This document shows, piece by piece, positions 2,019-39,768 of a DNA stretch of 64,000 nt; within the stretch, counting starts at the first letter, position 1; every line of letters begins with the position of its first letter. This stretch comes from Enorma phocaeensis. Its GTDB lineage: Bacteria; Actinomycetota; Coriobacteriia; Coriobacteriales; Coriobacteriaceae. The stretch spans positions 186,001-250,000 of the forward strand of contig NZ_JACJKQ010000002.1 of assembly GCF_016901575.1 (NCBI RefSeq), given 5' to 3'. The notes below the pieces were generated by a model. That model was given only the letters and a program-made list of their open reading frames with translations. It had not been told where the DNA came from and made no database searches. Made by a program: the position numbers and the translations under genes.

Positions 2019-2846
2019 ATGGCAGCGCTCGAGCTAGATGCGTTGGGCAGGATCGAGGTTCTTGACGAGGTCGGGTCTACCAATGACGAGCTCATGGCCC
2101 GCGCGCGTGCCGGGGCCCCGCACGGCGCCGCCTTGCGTGCGCGCTCCCAGAGCTCGGGCAAGGGGCGGCGCGCCCATCTATGGTCCTCTCCGGCAGGCGG
2201 CCTGTACATGTCGGTGCTCGTGGTGCCCGAGGTCCCTGACCGCCTGCTGCCCGGGCTTCCCGTCGCGTGCGGCCTCGGCGTGGTCCAGACCCTGTATCAC
2301 CTGGGGTGCAAGAGCGCGCGCCTCAAGTGGCCCAACGACATCGTCGTCGACGAAGGCAAGCTGGGCGGCATCCTCGTCGAGGTGAGCCGTTCGTCAGGCC
2401 GAACGGTCGCGGTGTGCGGGTTCGGCATCAATTTCCGCACGCCCCATGTCGAACATCCCACGGACGGCTCGCTGCCGGTCGTGGGCCTCATGCGCTGTCT
2501 GCCGAGCGGTGCGATGCTTCCCGAAATCGATGAGCTCGCCGAGCTGCTGCGCGAAGGGGTCCTCCTGTCTGTCGAGGAATGGACGGACCGTGCGCTTGCA
2601 GCGGGCAGCAACGCCGTCCCGCTCACGGGCATCATCGACAACTACCATCAGTTCCTGGCATATATCGAGGAGCCGGTGGACGTCTTCTCGCCCGAGGGGT
2701 CCGACTACGACATCCGCGAGTCGGGCGTGCTGCGTGGCGTAGACGGCTGGGGGCGTGCGCGCGTCGAGACCGAGCCGGGCAAGATCGAATACTTCGACGC
2801 CTCGCAGGTCTCCATCCGCCCGCACAAGGGGGACGAATCCCGCTAG
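2019..2846 (+). CDS. birA: Biotin-[acetyl-CoA-carboxylase] ligase (group I, no HTH)
   Basis: Attaches biotin to carboxylase carrier proteins by way of biotinyl-5'-AMP. 275 residues from the ATG at 2019, chosen because GGAGAACGGAGAGGG precedes it and the catalytic domain begins immediately (VGSTNDELMARA); an upstream extension to 1794 has no family similarity and overlaps the dnaE terminator. Active-site motifs: SGKGRRAHLW near residue 45 (the GRGRRG adenylate loop, here with Lys), LKWPNDI near 102 and KLGGILVE near 113. A C-terminal SH3-like domain follows. There is no N-terminal helix-turn-helix, so it is a monofunctional ligase rather than a repressor. A terminator follows the gene. Confidence 0.93.
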   Translation: MAALELDALGRIEVLDEVGSTNDELMARARAGAPHGAALRARSQSSGKGRRAHLWSSPAGGLYMSVLVVPEVPDRLLPGLPVACGLGVVQTLYHLGCKSARLKWPNDIVVDEGKLGGILVEVSRSSGRTVAVCGFGINFRTPHVEHPTDGSLPVVGLMRCLPSGAMLPEIDELAELLREGVLLSVEEWTDRALAAGSNAVPLTGIIDNYHQFLAYIEEPVDVFSPEGSDYDIRESGVLRGVDGWGRARVETEPGKIEYFDASQVSIRPHKGDESR

Positions 2847-2894
2847 CGGACCTGTCGGACCGCTCGTGCAGGCATGGTCGCGTCAAGATGGAAG

Positions 2895-2921
2895 CGGCCG
2901 GGCCCCATGGGGACCCGGCCG
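2895..2921. terminator. Bidirectional terminator between birA and the minus-strand remnant
   Basis: Arms CGGCCGGG and CCCGGCCG surround a small loop, 49 bp after the birA stop. It can serve birA and the convergent minus-strand frame. Confidence 0.6.
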
Positions 2922-2943
2922 TTCGTCGTAGACGCATGCTTTG

Positions 2944-3203
2944 TTATCCGAACAGCATGTTGGCAAGCGCTGTGCCGTTGTAGCCCAGGAATGCCCCGAT
3001 GGCGGCGGCGATGAGCATGAAGCATATGGAGCGGATGACCTTCATCCACAGAGGAATCATGCGCTCGCGACGCCCGCGCTCGGTGCCGCGGTCAACCGGC
3101 TTGCCGCTCCAGAAATCGCAGACCTCGCTATGGGCTACCAGGCCGTGCTCTTTCTCATGCCTGCCTGTGCGCGGTGCTCCTTGATGCGCTTCCCGATTTC
3201 CAT
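2944..3203 (-). pseudogene. Remnant of an XRE regulator with C-terminal membrane segment
   Basis: From an ATG at 3203, preceded by GAAGGGAG, the frame reads MEIGKRIKEHRAQAGM, the standard start of small XRE helix-turn-helix regulators in this lineage (compare the intact gene at 34531). It then reads into a stop after 22 residues. Another frame, open as part of 2944-3285, continues to the stop with a hydrophilic stretch and one clear membrane helix (ICFMLIAAAIGAFLGY near the C-terminus). The recognition helices (SQxxLAxxxxVSRQTVSNWE) are absent. I read this as a regulator that lost most of its HTH by deletion plus frameshift. An alternative is a genuine small membrane protein of up to 113 residues, but that frame has no good ribosome site. 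Confidence 0.55.
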
Positions 3204-9035: not shown

Positions 9036-10286
9036 CTACGCGAGGCCATCGAGCTGCCCGATGTCGCCGCAGACGGGGATGCCCGCGGCGCGCGCCGCCT
9101 CGAGGAGCTCGGCGTTGCGGGCGTCCATGGCGCCGAAGGACGACCTCAGGCACACGACGGCGCGGCAGGCGAGCAGCGCCTCTTTTGCCCGGTCGACGGC
9201 TTCCGGGCCGACGGGCTCGAAATCTGCGGCAAAGATCGCCGTGGCGGCAAGGCGGGCGGCGAGCTGGCCGTCGATGTCGCCCGGATAGAGGACGCCCGCC
9301 GCGAAGGGGATGCCGCGTCGCTGCAGGGCCCGAAACGTCGACGTTCCCGTGCCGCCGCCCGCTATCACGAAGACCTGCGGCTCGCCGGCGGGGCGGGCAA
9401 GCTCGACGGAGCCTGAGACCGGGTCGTAGCTTGCGGGCTCGACGCCGTAGAGGCGCGAGACCATCTCGGTCGACAGGGCGGCGTCGGGCGCGCCCTGGAA
9501 TATCACGCGCCCTCCATGTATGCAGGCGATGCGGTCTGCCGCGCGCAGGGCCATCCCGATGTCGTGCAGGGACGCCACGACGGCCATGCGCCGTTCTCGC
9601 GCCCGGTTCCTCAGCAGCTGGAGCATGCCGATCTGCGAATGGATGTCCAGATAGGAGGTTGGCTCGTCGAGCACGAGCAGCTTGGGCTCTTGGCAGAGGG
9701 CGCGCGCGATGAGGACGCGCTGGCGTTGGCCGTCGCTCACGTGGGCGGCGTCTCGGTCGCGCAGCCCCCAGGTGCCGGTCGCCTCCATGGCCTCGCGCAC
9801 GCAGCGACGGTCCTCAGGCGAGAGCACTCCCAGGCTGCCGGTATAGGGATGGCGCCCCGCCTCGACGATGTCCTGGCAGGTTATGAGGTCGGTTTTGTGG
9901 CGGTCGGTGAACAGCGCCGCCATGGTGCGGGCGCGCTCGGTGCCGGGGATCGTGTCGAGCGCCCGCCCAAAGAGCATGATGGAGCCCCCGAGCGCCTTGA
10001 GTTGCCCGGCGATGGTTCGCAGCATGGTCGTTTTGCCGGACCCGTTGGGCCCCACGAGCACGAGCAGCTCGCCCGGACGTACCGCAAGATCGACGTCGCT
10101 CACCAGGGCGCGAGAGGCGTGGCCGACGGCAAGCCCGCGCGTCTCGAGGGCGAGGGGCGTGTCGCCTGGGGCGCCGCTCGGGGCGCCGTCCCCCGTTGAG
10201 GCGTCGGCCGGATGGGGGCGCATGCCGTGCGCATGGGGCGCGGCGGGGCGCCTGCACCGGTCTTGTCGTGCGCGGAGGTCCATCAT
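9036..10286 (-). CDS. FecE-type ABC ATPase with an additional C-terminal Rossmann-like domain
   Basis: 416 residues. Residues ~45-290 form an iron-chelate/heme importer ATPase: Walker A GPNGSGKTT near 78, signature HVSDGQRQRVLIARAL near 182, Walker B LLVLDEP near 205 and switch SLHD near 239. Residues ~305-416 are an unusual extension starting with VFVIAGGGTGTSTFRAL, a glycine-rich nucleotide-binding-like turn, and ending CGDIGQLDGLA. The first of two adjacent ATGs overlaps the permease stop, with GGAAAGGAT upstream. It is the last gene of a binding protein-permease-ATPase operon. The function of the extra domain is unknown. Confidence 0.92.
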   Translation of the reverse strand: MMDLRARQDRCRRPAAPHAHGMRPHPADASTGDGAPSGAPGDTPLALETRGLAVGHASRALVSDVDLAVRPGELLVLVGPNGSGKTTMLRTIAGQLKALGGSIMLFGRALDTIPGTERARTMAALFTDRHKTDLITCQDIVEAGRHPYTGSLGVLSPEDRRCVREAMEATGTWGLRDRDAAHVSDGQRQRVLIARALCQEPKLLVLDEPTSYLDIHSQIGMLQLLRNRARERRMAVVASLHDIGMALRAADRIACIHGGRVIFQGAPDAALSTEMVSRLYGVEPASYDPVSGSVELARPAGEPQVFVIAGGGTGTSTFRALQRRGIPFAAGVLYPGDIDGQLAARLAATAIFAADFEPVGPEAVDRAKEALLACRAVVCLRSSFGAMDARNAELLEAARAAGIPVCGDIGQLDGLA

Positions 10287-11419
10287 CGGTATCCTTTCCG
10301 GCGCAGCATGAGCGCGATCACCACCGGCGCGCCAAACACGGCGGTGACGGCGCTCACCGAAAGCTCTACGGGCGAGAAGAGGGTTCGGGCGAGCAGGTCG
10401 CAGCCGCAGCAGAAAACCGAGCCTGCCAAAAAGCATGCGGGCATGACCAGGAGCGGCCGCGAGGAGCCGACGGCGAGGCGCGCCAGATGCGGCGCCGCGA
10501 TGCCTACGAACGATATGGGGCCGGCGAAGGCCGTGACGGTCGCCGAGAGCAGGCTTGAGACGAGCACGATGAGCACGCGAAGGCGGCGCACGTCCACCCC
10601 GACGCTATGGGCGAACGCCTCGCCCAGCTGATAGGCGCCCAGGGGTTTCGACAGCGCGAAGACCACGATGGAGACCGCGACGATCGCCGCCGTGGCCACG
10701 CCGAGGTCGGACCACGAGGAGCCCGAGAAGCTTCCCTGCGACCAGCTCTGCAGGTTTACGATGTCCTGGTCGTCGGCGAACGCGATGAGGAAGTTGGTGG
10801 CCGCCGAGCACACATAGCCCACCATGATGCCGGCGATGATGAGCATGCTTTGCGTGCGCACGCGACGTGCCAGCACGAGGGCCGCCCCCATGGTCGCAAG
10901 CGAGCCCGCAAGCGCGGCGGCAACCGACCCCCACGGGGTCAGGACCTGGCGGGCGCCTAGCAGCACGATCATGGCGAGCGCCACCGCCAGGCGCGCGCCC
11001 GACGAGATGCCGAGCACAAAGGGGTCGGCGATGGGATTGTTGAAAAAGGTCTGAAGCAGGAAGCCGGAAAGCGACAGGGCCCCGCCAAGAATCGCCGAGG
11101 CCAGCACGCGGGGCAGGCGGATCTGCCACACGATTTGCGAGAGGGTCGTTCCGTCCGGCCCCGACAAGATGCTGTCGAGCACCTCCGCCGGCGTCGCGCC
11201 GACGCTTCCGATGCAGATGCCGGCGACCAGAAGGATGGCAAGCGCGCATCCCAGCGCGGCCCAGACGGCGAGCGCCCGAAGACGCCGCGCGGGCATGCGG
11301 CCGGAGCGGGCGCTCCGAGAGGAGGCGGGGAAGTCGTCAAGGGGCCTTGGGCGTTCGCGCTGCCCCTCGGGCGCGGGGTCCGCCGCGCTGTGATCGAGGC
11401 AGGGACGGTGCGCCGTCAT
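10283..11419 (-). CDS. FecCD-family iron-chelate/cobalamin type ABC permease
   Basis: 378 residues with about nine to ten membrane helices after a ~45-residue polar N-terminus. FecCD landmarks include RLPRVLASAILGGALSLSG near 103, the NNPIADPFVLGISSGA loop near 128, WSQGSFSGSSW near 225, and GPISFVGIAAPHLAR near 306, the ATPase-contacting coupling helix. The ATG at 11419 overlaps the stop of the binding-protein gene (ATGA), indicating translational coupling. It imports ferric siderophore, heme or a related chelate together with its neighbours; the exact ligand cannot be read from sequence. Confidence 0.93.
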   Translation of the reverse strand: MTAHRPCLDHSAADPAPEGQRERPRPLDDFPASSRSARSGRMPARRLRALAVWAALGCALAILLVAGICIGSVGATPAEVLDSILSGPDGTTLSQIVWQIRLPRVLASAILGGALSLSGFLLQTFFNNPIADPFVLGISSGARLAVALAMIVLLGARQVLTPWGSVAAALAGSLATMGAALVLARRVRTQSMLIIAGIMVGYVCSAATNFLIAFADDQDIVNLQSWSQGSFSGSSWSDLGVATAAIVAVSIVVFALSKPLGAYQLGEAFAHSVGVDVRRLRVLIVLVSSLLSATVTAFAGPISFVGIAAPHLARLAVGSSRPLLVMPACFLAGSVFCCGCDLLARTLFSPVELSVSAVTAVFGAPVVIALMLRRKGYR

Positions 11420-12717
11420 CGGTCGAGCTTCCAAATGAAGCCGGAACTTTCGCCCGTGCCCTCGAGCGCCGCGCGAATGTCGGAGATGATCTGGTCCATT
11501 TCGGTCATGCGCTGATACATGTGCTCGTCGCATGCGTATACGTTGCCGTCTTGCACTGCCTTGAAATCCGAGAGGAGCGGGTTTTTCGCGACGAGGCCGT
11601 CGATGGTTGCGACCCCGGCGTCGACGGTGGTGTTGTAGATGATCACGTCGGCGTCTTTGGCGCGGGCGTAGAAGGTCTCCATATCGACGACCGATTGGAC
11701 CGATGACGACGCGGCGTCCTCATCGACGGGGTCGAAGCTCATAAAGGTCCCGCCCGCAAGCTCGATCATCTGTGAGAAATAGTCCGACGAACGCCGCGTG
11801 ACGGCGGCGCCGTCGTCGTTGATATAGAAGAAGGCGACGGTTGCATCCAGCGCTTCCTGCGAGGAGACGTCCTCGACGCGCTCGGCGATCGCCTCGAAAC
11901 GCCGCTGCGCCTCTGCCTCGCGGCCGAAGAGCGCCCCCATGAGCTTGATCCACTCAAGGCGGCCGAGCACCTCTGGCTCGCTGCTGGACTGCTCGGTGAG
12001 CACCACCACGCCCAGGTCCTCGAGCTTTTGCTTTGCTTCCGGCGCATGGTTGATCTTGGTGTTTTCGATTGCAAGCGTGCAGTGGCGGTCGGCTACGAGC
12101 TCGAAGTCGGGGCTGCTGTATGTTCCGCCGAAGGCGGCCGTGCCGGCGCTGAGGGCTTCAGCCAGCGCCGCGACGGGGCTTTCGTCGGCCGTGACCGACG
12201 ATACCGTGACCGCATCGATGGCCCCGATGCTGTCGAGCAGGCAGGCCATGCCTGTCGAGACGAGGTAGACGCTGTCGAGCGGCAGCTGGATGACGGCGAT
12301 GTCTTCGGCGAGGCCTGCAGGAGCGTCCGCGCCCTCGGGCACCACGAGGAACCGGTCCCCGTTTGAGACGCAGATGAGCTGGTAGCCGCCGGCGTATCGG
12401 TCGATGGTGAAGTTGCGGGCGTAGGAGAGCGCGACCGTCTCCTCGGGGGTCCACCCGCAGCCGAGGTCGGTGTCGCGATAGTCCGCCTGGACGCGTGAGC
12501 CGCTCCCGGATGGCACGGCATGGGAGCCGGCATCTGTCGCCGCCTGCGAGCACGCCGCGAGCGGCAGCGCGAGCAGCGCCGCGGCGAGGGCGACGGCAAG
12601 GCGCACGCAGCGCCGGCGCCTTATCGACGTCGCCCGCACCGCATCGCGGGCGGCACGGGCTTCTTCGCACGTGGGACGGGACGAGTTGGCACGCTGGGCG
12701 ATATGGTCGGAGAGCAC
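11416..12717 (-). CDS. Periplasmic-binding-type lipoprotein of the iron-chelate importer
   Basis: 433 residues if translation starts at the GTG at 12717, which has AGAAAGGAAG at good spacing; the ATG at 12735 lacks a ribosome site. A long basic N-region precedes the signal helix LAVALAAALLALPLAAC with a lipobox LAAC, so the mature protein is anchored by a lipidated cysteine. The body has the two-lobe pattern of the TroA/FecB superfamily (DSIGAIDAVTVSS near 175, SSEPEVLGRLEWIKLMGALFG near 255, DADVIIYNTT near 365). First gene of the operon with the FecCD permease and ATPase, divergent from a DUF3793/flavodoxin pair, a context that points to iron or heme. Confidence 0.9.
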   Translation of the reverse strand: MLSDHIAQRANSSRPTCEEARAARDAVRATSIRRRRCVRLAVALAAALLALPLAACSQAATDAGSHAVPSGSGSRVQADYRDTDLGCGWTPEETVALSYARNFTIDRYAGGYQLICVSNGDRFLVVPEGADAPAGLAEDIAVIQLPLDSVYLVSTGMACLLDSIGAIDAVTVSSVTADESPVAALAEALSAGTAAFGGTYSSPDFELVADRHCTLAIENTKINHAPEAKQKLEDLGVVVLTEQSSSEPEVLGRLEWIKLMGALFGREAEAQRRFEAIAERVEDVSSQEALDATVAFFYINDDGAAVTRRSSDYFSQMIELAGGTFMSFDPVDEDAASSSVQSVVDMETFYARAKDADVIIYNTTVDAGVATIDGLVAKNPLLSDFKAVQDGNVYACDEHMYQRMTEMDQIISDIRAALEGTGESSGFIWKLDR

Positions 12718-12823
12718 GGGCTTCCTTTCTGGCATAAGGGCTCGGAAGATTCCGAGCGTCTTTACATGATACGTGTTTGCGTTCCGCCCTGTCCGCGACG
12801 ACCTGTCGGGGATGTATGCCAGA

Positions 12824-12887
12824 AAGTTATCTATATGAAACTTTAAATGAGCCTTGTCAAGGAGTAAAAGTTCTACTAGGTTAACTT
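12824..12887. promoter_or_regulatory. Two tandem AAGTT-N10-AACTT palindromes in the divergent importer/DUF3793 control region
   Basis: The 212-bp interval between the importer start (12717) and the DUF3793 start (12930) becomes AT-rich near 12820-12890. It carries AAGTT-N10-AACTT at 12824-12843 and again at 12868-12887. The copies are offset by 44 bp, about four helical turns, and have different central 10 bases. Position and symmetry suggest a dimeric repressor controlling both operons, plausibly an iron regulator; the regulator is not identified. Confidence 0.6.
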
Positions 12888-12929
12888 ATGGTGATGGATC
12901 GGAGTGCCATTCGGAAGGACGAGAAGCCC

Positions 12930-13688
12930 ATGGACGAGCCCCTCACACGACGCCGCTTCACCGAGGCCGTGGTGCGCAACTGCGCCCCGACGCTTCTGGG
13001 CGCCAAGCCTGCGAGCCTGTTCACCCTTCCAGGTTGTTTCAGGGCCGAGGACGAGGCATGCAGGCCCTGTCGCATGGCCCGAGAGCGCCGCAACACGCTT
13101 CGACGCTTCGTCGACGAGGCATGCGACGAGCTCGCGTCTGCAGGCGTGGTGGTCAAGGTGCTCTCATGCAGGACCTACGGCGCGCTCGTCTACGTCTATC
13201 GTCCCCTCGAGCTCGCGCGCCATCTCAGCGACGCGCGCATCGTGCGCGCCCTCGCCGACAACGGGTATCCGCTGGGGGCCCGGCGCCAAGAAGCTGGTTT
13301 TCCGGCGCCTGCGTGCCGCCTCGGAACGGCTGACCGCATGCCGGAGGGGCAGGCGGGCGCGTGCCGGCAGGTGTGGGAGCCGGACCTCGTGGCGTTGATC
13401 GGGGCGCTCGAAGAGCGGCTCGCTCTGGGCGGCATCCCCCATGAGATCGGGTTCTTCTTGGGATATCCCTACGAGGACGTCAGCGGATTCATCAAGTATC
13501 GGGGACAAGCGTGCATCTGCCTGGGCGCGTGGAAGGTCTATGCAAACGCGCGCCAGGCCCAGCGTCGATTCTCGCGCTTCAAGCGCTGCACGCGCCGGTG
13601 CTGCGCGCTCTATCAAAGAGGCGCCAGCCTCTCCGACCTGGCCGGTCCCCAGCAGCTGGTTTCTCTGTCCCGCGCGAGCGGGGCGTGA
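12930..13688 (+). CDS. DUF3793 family protein
   Basis: 252 residues from the ATG at 12930, which has GGAAGGACG upstream; an in-frame ATG at 12888 lacks one. Family features: VVRNCAPTLLGAKPASLF at the N-terminus, Cys-containing CFRAEDEACRPC near 33-45, VKVLSCRTYGALVYVYRP near 76, and IGFFLGYPYEDVSGFI with CLGAWKVYAN near 170-195. The biochemical function is not established. In related anaerobes the family often sits beside a flavodoxin and metal-uptake genes, as here. Cytosolic, no membrane segment. It is followed 62 bp later by the flavodoxin, probably in the same transcript. Confidence 0.85.
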   Translation: MDEPLTRRRFTEAVVRNCAPTLLGAKPASLFTLPGCFRAEDEACRPCRMARERRNTLRRFVDEACDELASAGVVVKVLSCRTYGALVYVYRPLELARHLSDARIVRALADNGYPLGARRQEAGFPAPACRLGTADRMPEGQAGACRQVWEPDLVALIGALEERLALGGIPHEIGFFLGYPYEDVSGFIKYRGQACICLGAWKVYANARQAQRRFSRFKRCTRRCCALYQRGASLSDLAGPQQLVSLSRASGA

Positions 13689-13750: not shown

Positions 13751-14170
13751 ATGAGCAAGGTCGCGATCGTGTATTGGAGCGGAACGGGCAACACCGAGGC
13801 GATGGCGGAGCTCGTCGCCGAGGGCGTGAACGGTGCGAACGGAGAGGCCGATCTGATCCAGGTTTCTGATTTCTCGGTATCCGACCTGGCCGCCTACGAT
13901 GCCTTCGCGTTCGGCTGCCCCGCCATGGGGTCGGAGGAGCTCGAGAGCGACGAGTTCGAACCGGTGTGGGACGAACTCGAGCCTGAGCTCCCCGGTCGAA
14001 AGGTGGCTCTTTTCGGCAGCTACGACTGGGCGGACGGCGAGTGGATGGACCTGTGGCGCGAGCGCGCCGAGGCCGCCGGCATCACGGTCGCCGACACGGT
14101 CATCGCCAAGGACTACCCCGATGGCCCAGCGGCAGAAGCGTGCCGGGCGCTTGGCGCCATGCTCGCATAG
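13751..14170 (+). CDS. Flavodoxin
   Basis: 139-residue FMN electron carrier. The phosphate loop is WSGTGNTEAM near residue 9; AYDAFAFGCPAMGSE near 50 is the isoalloxazine loop and VALFGSYDWADGEWM near 87 is the second flavin loop, all in the usual order and at the normal short-chain length. AGAAAGGATGAGAG precedes the ATG. Paired with DUF3793 and opposite an iron-type importer: a flavodoxin replacing ferredoxin when iron is scarce is established for the family, and that role here is inference. Confidence 0.93.
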   Translation: MSKVAIVYWSGTGNTEAMAELVAEGVNGANGEADLIQVSDFSVSDLAAYDAFAFGCPAMGSEELESDEFEPVWDELEPELPGRKVALFGSYDWADGEWMDLWRERAEAAGITVADTVIAKDYPDGPAAEACRALGAMLA

Positions 14171-16462: not shown

Positions 16463-16656
16463 GGGTCGCTCTGGGACTCGGCCCATCGAGACTGGAAGCC
16501 CGAGGGCGCGCAGAACGTGTCGCCGGCGTGTCGAGGACGCTGAGTTGAGGAGAGTCCGCGGCGCCGGCCGCAAGATGTAACTCTCGTATGTACATGTATG
16601 GCACCGGGCGGTATCGTAGCGGGCAATGAGTGGGAACGAGGGAGTCGGGAGACCTC

Positions 16657-17091
16657 ATGCAGATATCGTCTCGTTTTTCCATCGCGGTGCACACGTTGCT
16701 GTGCATCGCCTATTTCTCGCCGACCAGAAAGGTCACGTCCGCCTTTATCGCGGGAAGCGTGAGCGTGAATCCCGTGGTGATTCGTCGCACGCTGGGCCAG
16801 CTGAAAGAGGCCGGGATGATCTCGGTCGAGGCGGGCGTGGGGGGAGCGACGCTTGCGCGCCCGGCATCTCAGATCACGCTGCTCGACATCTACCATGCGG
16901 TCGATTGCGTCTCGGGCGACCTGTTCCATTTTCATGAGCATCCCAACCCCGCGTGTCCGGTAGGGGGCAACGTCCACGCCCTCCTCGACGGCGAGGTGGC
17001 CGCGGCGCAGGCGGCGCTGGAGGACCGCCTGGCGCAGACTTCCCTGGCAGATCTCATCTCAGAGCTCAAAGGGCTTGCTCCGGCGCAATGA
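16657..17091 (+). CDS. Rrf2-family transcriptional regulator (YwnA-like)
   Basis: 144 residues with the Rrf2 winged helix: QISSRFSIAVHTLLCIAYF, SAFIAGSVSVNPVVIRRTLGQLKEAGMISVEAG. The second half (ITLLDIYHAVD, then PNPACPVGGNV) matches the YwnA branch. The Cys-rich iron-sulfur ligand pattern of IscR/NsrR is absent, with only one conserved Cys in the CPVG motif, so it probably senses thiol or other stress without a cluster. GGGAG lies before the ATG at 16657. A short palindrome ATGTACAT at 16588-16595 could be part of its operator. No obvious target gene is adjacent. Confidence 0.85.
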   Translation: MQISSRFSIAVHTLLCIAYFSPTRKVTSAFIAGSVSVNPVVIRRTLGQLKEAGMISVEAGVGGATLARPASQITLLDIYHAVDCVSGDLFHFHEHPNPACPVGGNVHALLDGEVAAAQAALEDRLAQTSLADLISELKGLAPAQ

Positions 17092-39714: not shown

Positions 39715-39768
39715 CTTCTAAACTATAGTTAGAAGTATATAATAAAACTTCATAATATAGTTTAGAAG
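39715..39768. promoter_or_regulatory. Two 21-bp operator-like palindromes upstream of the ATPase gene
   Basis: Site A, 39715-39735: CTTCTAA-N7-TTAGAAG, perfect 7-bp arms with a CTATAG-containing centre. Site B, 39748-39768: CTTC and GAAG ends with the shared TATAGTTTAGAAG half. The centres are 33 bp apart, three helical turns. They lie 15 to 68 bp upstream of the ATPase ATG. Confidence 0.65.

Follow-up and report, generated by a model that had tools for sequence, protein, structure and literature searches.

What are two inverted repeats doing in the control region between an ABC importer and a DUF3793 protein with its flavodoxin, and which of these genes do they serve? The window (the whole 64-kb stretch of DNA that was analysed) places them between the importer on the minus strand and the DUF3793-flavodoxin pair on the plus strand. 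The first-pass annotation had read them as two palindromes of identical geometry, 44 bp apart, and so they are: both are exact, and their starts are separated by 44 bp. The parts of the locus, with scores on a weight matrix described below, are these:

12824-12843: operator 1, an exact match to AAGTT-N10-AACTT; matrix score 27.5
12868-12887: operator 2, an exact match to AAGTT-N10-AACTT; matrix score 26.9
12930-13688, plus strand: DUF3793 protein (PF12672), in an open reading frame that opens at 12888; likely start 12930
13751-14170, plus strand: short-chain flavodoxin (TIGR01753, above its cut-off)
11416-12735, minus strand: substrate-binding lipoprotein (Peripla_BP_2) of the ABC importer; the real start may be the GTG at 12717
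10283-11533, minus strand: open reading frame of a FecCD-type permease; the true start is probably further in
9036-10436, minus strand: open reading frame of an ABC ATPase with a C-terminal extension; among NCBIfam models it comes closest to a corrinoid transporter ATPase, without reaching that model's cut-off

The start of DUF3793 is put at 12930 because its relatives start there and GGAAGGA lies upstream; the flavodoxin presumably shares the operon of the preceding DUF3793 gene. Two other items in the neighborhood deserve mention: a perfect inverted repeat, GCTCGGAA-GA-TTCCGAGC, at 12740-12757, just upstream of the importer gene, which could be a hairpin in the importer leader or another operator; and a gene for an Rrf2-family regulator at 16630-17091, 3.7 kb from the operators.

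Exact copies of AAGTT-N10-AACTT number 2 in the window against 0.19 expected from window shuffles, a count reached by 1 shuffle in 100. In the whole 2.36 Mb genome, operators 1 and 2 are the sole exact matches, and a reversed-pattern control finds 0. Allowing one mismatch erases the distinction: 30 places genome-wide against 28 for the control pattern. Of the genome scan for this pattern that had been suggested, the exact form finds only the locus itself and the one-mismatch form does no better than the control; because of that count the outer arms are too loose to define a regulon, and they were rejected as its definition. (Elsewhere in the window, an AT-rich spot in otherwise GC-rich DNA at 39715-39768 has a matrix score of 15.8; it also carries a 13-bp inverted repeat, CTTCTAAACTATA, at 39715-39727 and 39756-39768.)

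What the relatives keep is more than the arms. Over them the motif reads roughly AAGTTAgcywwrgcTAACTT, of which the arms are only a part, and its core is AGTTAG-N6-CTAACT. This is an inverted repeat with fixed half-site spacing (one may write it 6-6-6 or 8-4-8), as expected of an operator for a protein of the DtxR/MntR family; in the alignment the sites have an even centre and 6 bases between their arms, and do not take the odd-centred form TTAGG-N9-CCTAA. The earlier view that only symmetry is conserved therefore needs amending: symmetry is kept, but the inner TAG/CTA positions are also conserved across many relatives. Palindromes from DUF3793 upstream regions, the window, the sister genome G001 and 50 feoB loci served to build a symmetric weight matrix.

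Within the genus (three genomes compared), G001 has both sites at the orthologous spot, 46 bp apart, with all 20 bases of site 2 and 17 of the 20 in site 1 unchanged, while the intergenic DNA around them has largely diverged and otherwise aligns poorly. DUF3793 was not found in this genome: the sites stand between the flavodoxin and the importer (L075). DUF3793 is accordingly not always tied to the flavodoxin, since G001 keeps operators, flavodoxin and importer without it. Two further exact matches lie elsewhere in G001; G002 has no exact matches, though two related palindromes accompany its DUF3793 gene (L067).

Within the family, 49 of 65 genomes contain DUF3793. Beyond the window, 55 upstream regions were collected (from 48 other family genomes, a second copy in G054, five Collinsella contigs and one Clostridia contig; genus g3 is assigned to Collinsella on the evidence of upstream regions identical to those of named Collinsella contigs). 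Every one of the 55 contains a site scoring at least 18, compared with 0.09% of first-order shuffles, and, with the window counted in, 55 of 56 contain two or more sites scoring at least 15 (the exception, L061, has one); these counts, like those for feo below, are partly circular because the matrix was trained on these loci, and many of the Collinsella loci are near-identical. The spacing is also restricted: of the 24 upstream regions with exactly two sites, 21 have site starts separated by 48, 49 or 50 bp, and the remaining three have separations of 33, 68 and, in the window, 44 bp; in the Collinsella aerofaciens group a third site is set between the two (22 + 28).

A test free of this circularity is provided by other families. 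A class-wide search found DUF3793 in 27 of 119 genomes, and all 14 loci outside the family (13 genomes, families f2 and f3), none of them used in training the matrix, were scanned from 500 bp upstream to 60 bp inside the matched domain. A site scoring at least 18 is present at 13 of the 14. Shuffles reach that score in 0.55% of cases (up to 2.3% where the locus is AT-rich), and control stretches from these loci in 3 of 63; L208, with 12.1, is the sole miss, and the 14 include three pairs of close relatives (L199/L200, L202/L203, L204/L205). A flavodoxin lies near DUF3793 at 13 of these 14 loci, with no match in L201.

Does the regulon extend beyond DUF3793 and flavodoxin? Operators of the DtxR/MntR family are to be expected at promoters of genes that acquire iron or manganese, and it is there that the second group of sites is found. 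Before any matrix was made, exact or one-mismatch copies had been noted in 22 of 30 feoB loci fetched (exact in 18), for example AAGTTAGGTTTTTCTAACTT, just upstream of a Collinsella feoB. With the matrix, an upstream site scoring at least 16 is found in 31 of 31 distinct feoA-feoA-feoB loci, and two or more in 30 of the 31 (feo loci being part of the training set; one further feo locus had too little upstream sequence for the scan); the same scan finds no site in the gene bodies of these loci. The feoA-feoB fusion is served far less regularly: of 16 distinct loci, 3 have a site (the genome of the window, G001 and G050). In the genome of the window the feo sites are placed as follows:

feoA-feoA-feoB: sites at L157 3343, 3364 and 2666
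feoA-feoB fusion: sites at L158 4490 and 4565

Conservation in front of orthologous loci, by which the first-pass annotation had proposed that its operators be judged, is seen for DUF3793-flavodoxin, and the sites are also seen before feoA-feoA-feoB. Protein-binding operators and a metal regulon common to the lineage, in all probability one for iron, are what the conserved sites and the genes behind them support.

A sequence-only model of the motif, run over the genome of the window at E ≤ 10, returns 13 rows at 9 places, with E-values from 0.2 to 7, so that single rows are weak. The places include DUF3793-flavodoxin, feoA-feoA-feoB, the feoA-feoB fusion, a CydD-like and an MsbA-like ABC pair, a small HMA-domain protein, enolase and a contig end. 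When eight other genomes were searched at E ≤ 1.5, one or more of these targets came back in seven: feo in G001, G002, G005, G008 and G059; DUF3793 in G002, G005, G008, G055 and G123; an ABC pair in G002 and G123 (6 of the 18 rows of G123 and four of the five of G008 were looked at). The HMA gene of G008 is divergent from DUF3793; the three rows of G061 match no known target.

Some of these minor places have features of their own. Ahead of the CydD-like ABC transporter pair, two overlapping copies lie 15 bp apart (L115 3325-3359, contig C18), and copies precede two ABC exporter-type genes, the first of them MsbA-like (L190 155 and 5760, contig C21). A copy stands just upstream of enolase in two genera (C78:52845 in the genome of the window, L185/L113; L216 in G001; L230 in G055); it may tie glycolysis to iron or be no more than a promoter element that resembles the motif by chance. 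Finally, two copies 65-76 bp apart separate a HAD-like gene from a small alkyltransferase-like gene (MGMT-type, as judged by eye):

End of contig C22, genome of the window: L189 6786 and 6851, the alkyltransferase-like gene running into the contig end
G001: L226
G055: L222

A similar pair in G008 (L228) lies on the 3' side of the alkyltransferase-like gene.

The importer fares differently. The first-pass annotation had made the operators a property of an iron-type importer as much as of DUF3793-flavodoxin, and this is not supported. Relatives of the importer's binding protein occur in 31 of 64 family genomes (33 rows), and sites were found upstream of only 2 of the 30 loci scanned, those of the genome of the window and of G001, in both of which the importer faces the flavodoxin across the operators. 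(The scan covered 560 bases before the first aligned residue, and would miss sites farther away or before other first genes of the operon.) With 28 of 30 loci lacking a site, the importer was rejected as a member of the regulon elsewhere: it is a local neighbour of the operators rather than a conserved target, and its control by them is argued from position in one genus. Its iron identity is likewise unproven: in NCBIfam it comes closest to the corrinoid ATPase and BtuC models, followed by models for Fe(III) and heme, and reaches the cut-off of none. Nor was a known riboswitch found: there is no Rfam match at gathering thresholds at 12 loci of its relatives, in the G001 stretch or in the whole window. 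The case shows that a conserved target, the flavodoxin, can be separated from a local neighbour, the importer.

Which protein reads the sites? Fur (PF01475) is found in 52 of 64 family genomes, one copy being present in the genome of the window, but not in ten genomes that have DUF3793 and the sites (G003-G006, G050, G052, G053, G056-G058; completeness is 81-89% for G056-G058 and at least 94% for the rest). Fur was accordingly rejected as the binder on its distribution. DtxR-family proteins (PF02742) are found in 64 of 64 genomes, and in six of the Fur-less ten there is a single match to the family (G004-G006, G053, G057, G058; G057 and G058 are less than 90% complete). A second DtxR-family paralogue in the genome of the window, which could bind alongside the universal one or in its place, is sporadic in the family; the universal one is encoded here:

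G000:C20 (L110) 2745-3167, minus strand: universal DtxR-family protein

In 30 of 30 loci fetched (from 64 genomes) this protein keeps the same metal ligands, D, E, H, C, E and H, a mixed set, with Asp and Glu as in MntR (positions 8 and 11) and Cys as in DtxR at 102; its recognition segment, S-K-A/P-S-V-N-K-A, is also present in all 30, varying only by a single change of Ala to Pro. In NCBIfam it is closest to MntR models but reaches none of their cut-offs, its nearest solved relatives are 5zr4, an MntR (2h09, which we take to be that of E. coli) and IdeR (1b1b), and Pfam shows only the two N-terminal domains. There is no indication of autoregulation: a site is found at its gene in only 1 of 30 loci, with a borderline score of 16.1. 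It is likely that this universal repressor with its mixed MntR/DtxR ligands binds the sites.

Sites of this kind have precedents. The upstream region of E. coli mntH (NC_000913) contains a perfect palindrome, AACATAGC-N4-GCTATGTT, presumably the MntR-binding box, that scores 16.3 on the matrix; it is the same 20-bp, 8-4-8 palindrome with the same TAGC/GCTA inner core, and its presumed regulator belongs to the same family. It differs in its outer letters (AACA/TGTT in place of AAGT/ACTT) and in serving a manganese importer instead of feo and flavodoxin. The DtxR and IdeR proteins of Corynebacterium and Mycobacterium recognize the consensus TTAGG...CCTAA, in which the half-site letters GTTAG/CTAAC are those of the sites considered here. 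Also shared are iron regulation in Actinobacteria and the Cys102 ligand; the box itself is 19 bp long and odd-centred (site lists in PMC524172), and its half-sites are 1 bp apart, not 6. The judgment that the palindromes are neither a Fur box nor a classical DtxR box is thus borne out, by their geometry and by the ten genomes that keep sites and in which Fur was not found.

A parallel in architecture is offered by SloR of Streptococcus mutans, a DtxR-family protein that is reported to repress cooperatively at mntH and sloABC from 6-6-6 palindromes, several per promoter, one of them overlapping the -35 element (PMC12096823). Form and multiplicity resemble those of the sites analysed here; the differences are that SloR answers to manganese in streptococci and has a C-terminal FeoA domain, which Pfam does not find in the Coriobacteriaceae candidate. 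By analogy, the candidate repressor would act as SloR does, with iron. A parallel in the metal site is PgMntR of Porphyromonas gingivalis, with the same mixed kind of ligands; it is reported to have an Asp/Cys/Glu/His site that binds Mn(II) and Fe(II) (PMC4805248), and differs in carrying twin FeoA domains.

How do the sites lie relative to promoters? Of the 56 DUF3793 regions, 27 have a promoter match close to the last site. In 25 of the 56 it has the form TTGACC-N16-TATAAG (two are one letter off), with the second hexamer beginning 3 bases before the last site; in two it is TTTACT-N17-TATAGT, 12-13 bases before it; the scan reports none in the other 29, the window included. In the window itself a sigma-70 scan gives one minus-strand match, at 12795-12766, between the operators and the importer gene, which is not conserved in G001, and no convincing promoter overlapping the operators. 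Three weak elements can be picked out by eye, the last of them also by analogy with the TATAAG that overlaps the site in 25 relatives:

12855-12860, minus strand: possible -35 of the importer, TTGACA
12832-12837, minus strand: poor -10 of the importer, CATATA, inside operator 1
12865-12870, plus strand: possible -10 of DUF3793-flavodoxin, TAAAAG, overlapping operator 2

The TTGACA/CATATA pair is not conserved in G001 and goes unreported by the promoter scanner; operator 2 should cover the region where the DUF3793 transcript begins.

The palindromes, then, are very probably landing pads of a metal-sensing repressor, found also before the main ferrous-iron uptake genes. These are real operators, and theirs is an iron regulon of a known kind. 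Sites, conservation, target genes and the distribution of the candidate regulator can be counted; the identity of the repressor, its metal and repression as the direction of its effect we infer. With good confidence, we assign the sites to a repressor of the DtxR/MntR family that senses ferrous iron; the universal protein is the likeliest candidate, and it would repress DUF3793-flavodoxin and feoA-feoA-feoB. In its iron-bound form it would place one dimer on each 20-bp site, one covering the region upstream of -35 and the other the -10 element and start of the DUF3793-flavodoxin promoter, and so block transcription. On iron shortage it would leave, and flavodoxin, DUF3793, feoA-feoA-feoB and further operons would be expressed together, the flavodoxin serving as a replacement for iron-sulphur ferredoxin; the importer, divergent across the same operators in this genus, may share the control. 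Flavodoxin production in iron shortage is textbook knowledge and fits the set of targets.

Might the metal be manganese instead, with the same operators making up an MntR-type regulon in which the iron genes are a side product? The Asp and Glu at MntR positions 8 and 11, the MntR models nearest to the candidate, the mntH-like geometry of the box and the dual metal binding of PgMntR all lean that way; we nevertheless think it unlikely, given the invariant Cys at the DtxR 102 position and clearest targets that are ferrous-iron transport and flavodoxin, and no manganese importer was recognized in the list from the genome of the window (a short one that could miss some). That another protein occupies the sites (Fur, the second DtxR paralogue or the Rrf2 protein) appears more doubtful still: all three are encoded in the genome of the window, the last only 3.7 kb away, but the ten site-bearing genomes in which Fur was not found, and the six among them with one DtxR-family match only (two less than 90% complete), speak against the first two, and reading the open reading frames near the G001 operators by eye brought up none that is Rrf2-like.

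One might, in the extreme case, dispense with a dedicated repressor altogether, and take the palindromes for accidents or for a conserved promoter element. One-mismatch versions of the arms are indeed about as common as the control, and the last site overlaps the -10 element in 25 of 56 regions; yet across three families the symmetry, the multi-copy architecture and the target set persist while the spacers and centres vary, and such an explanation is barely credible. The ferrous-iron-sensing repressor is the reading that we retain.

How far does this regulon reach, and what does it say about DUF3793? A slightly better than even case can be made for an iron regulon across the whole order in the Coriobacteriia, with a mixed Asp/Cys repressor of the DtxR family, an MntR-type operator, and feoA-feoA-feoB and DUF3793-flavodoxin as its steadiest targets. 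Among the papers listed in a literature search, judged by titles and the beginnings of abstracts, none describes an iron regulon in this lineage; no paper was found that joins DUF3793 with iron, the sole mention found of DUF3793 being in a fungal study. If the proposal is correct, DUF3793 would be a new protein of iron starvation, acting together with flavodoxin or on its behalf. The analysis gives a functional handle on DUF3793; for iron control in a family of gut bacteria to which Collinsella belongs, and probably in two related families, it also supplies an operator sequence open to testing, a candidate repressor and a list of genes.

The DUF3793 protein itself has 13 columns that are invariant over 36 sequences, around PHE-G---GYP--DV--F and G-W. 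Its predicted structure (mean pLDDT 85.9) is confident except in a loop at about 122-145 and at the C-terminal end. Against solved structures, Foldseek finds nothing for the model at E ≤ 0.001; the best alignment by VIA-align, middling at most, is to P. gingivalis 2guk, of unknown function (Z 5.9, rmsd 3.8 over 106 residues). As modelled, DUF3793 would thus be without a clear match among solved structures, which is not proof of a new fold. The Clostridia contig mentioned above (L025) also has a DUF3793-flavodoxin pair, preceded by two strong palindromes that share the 20-bp geometry and have different inner letters (GTTCGC/GCGAAC).
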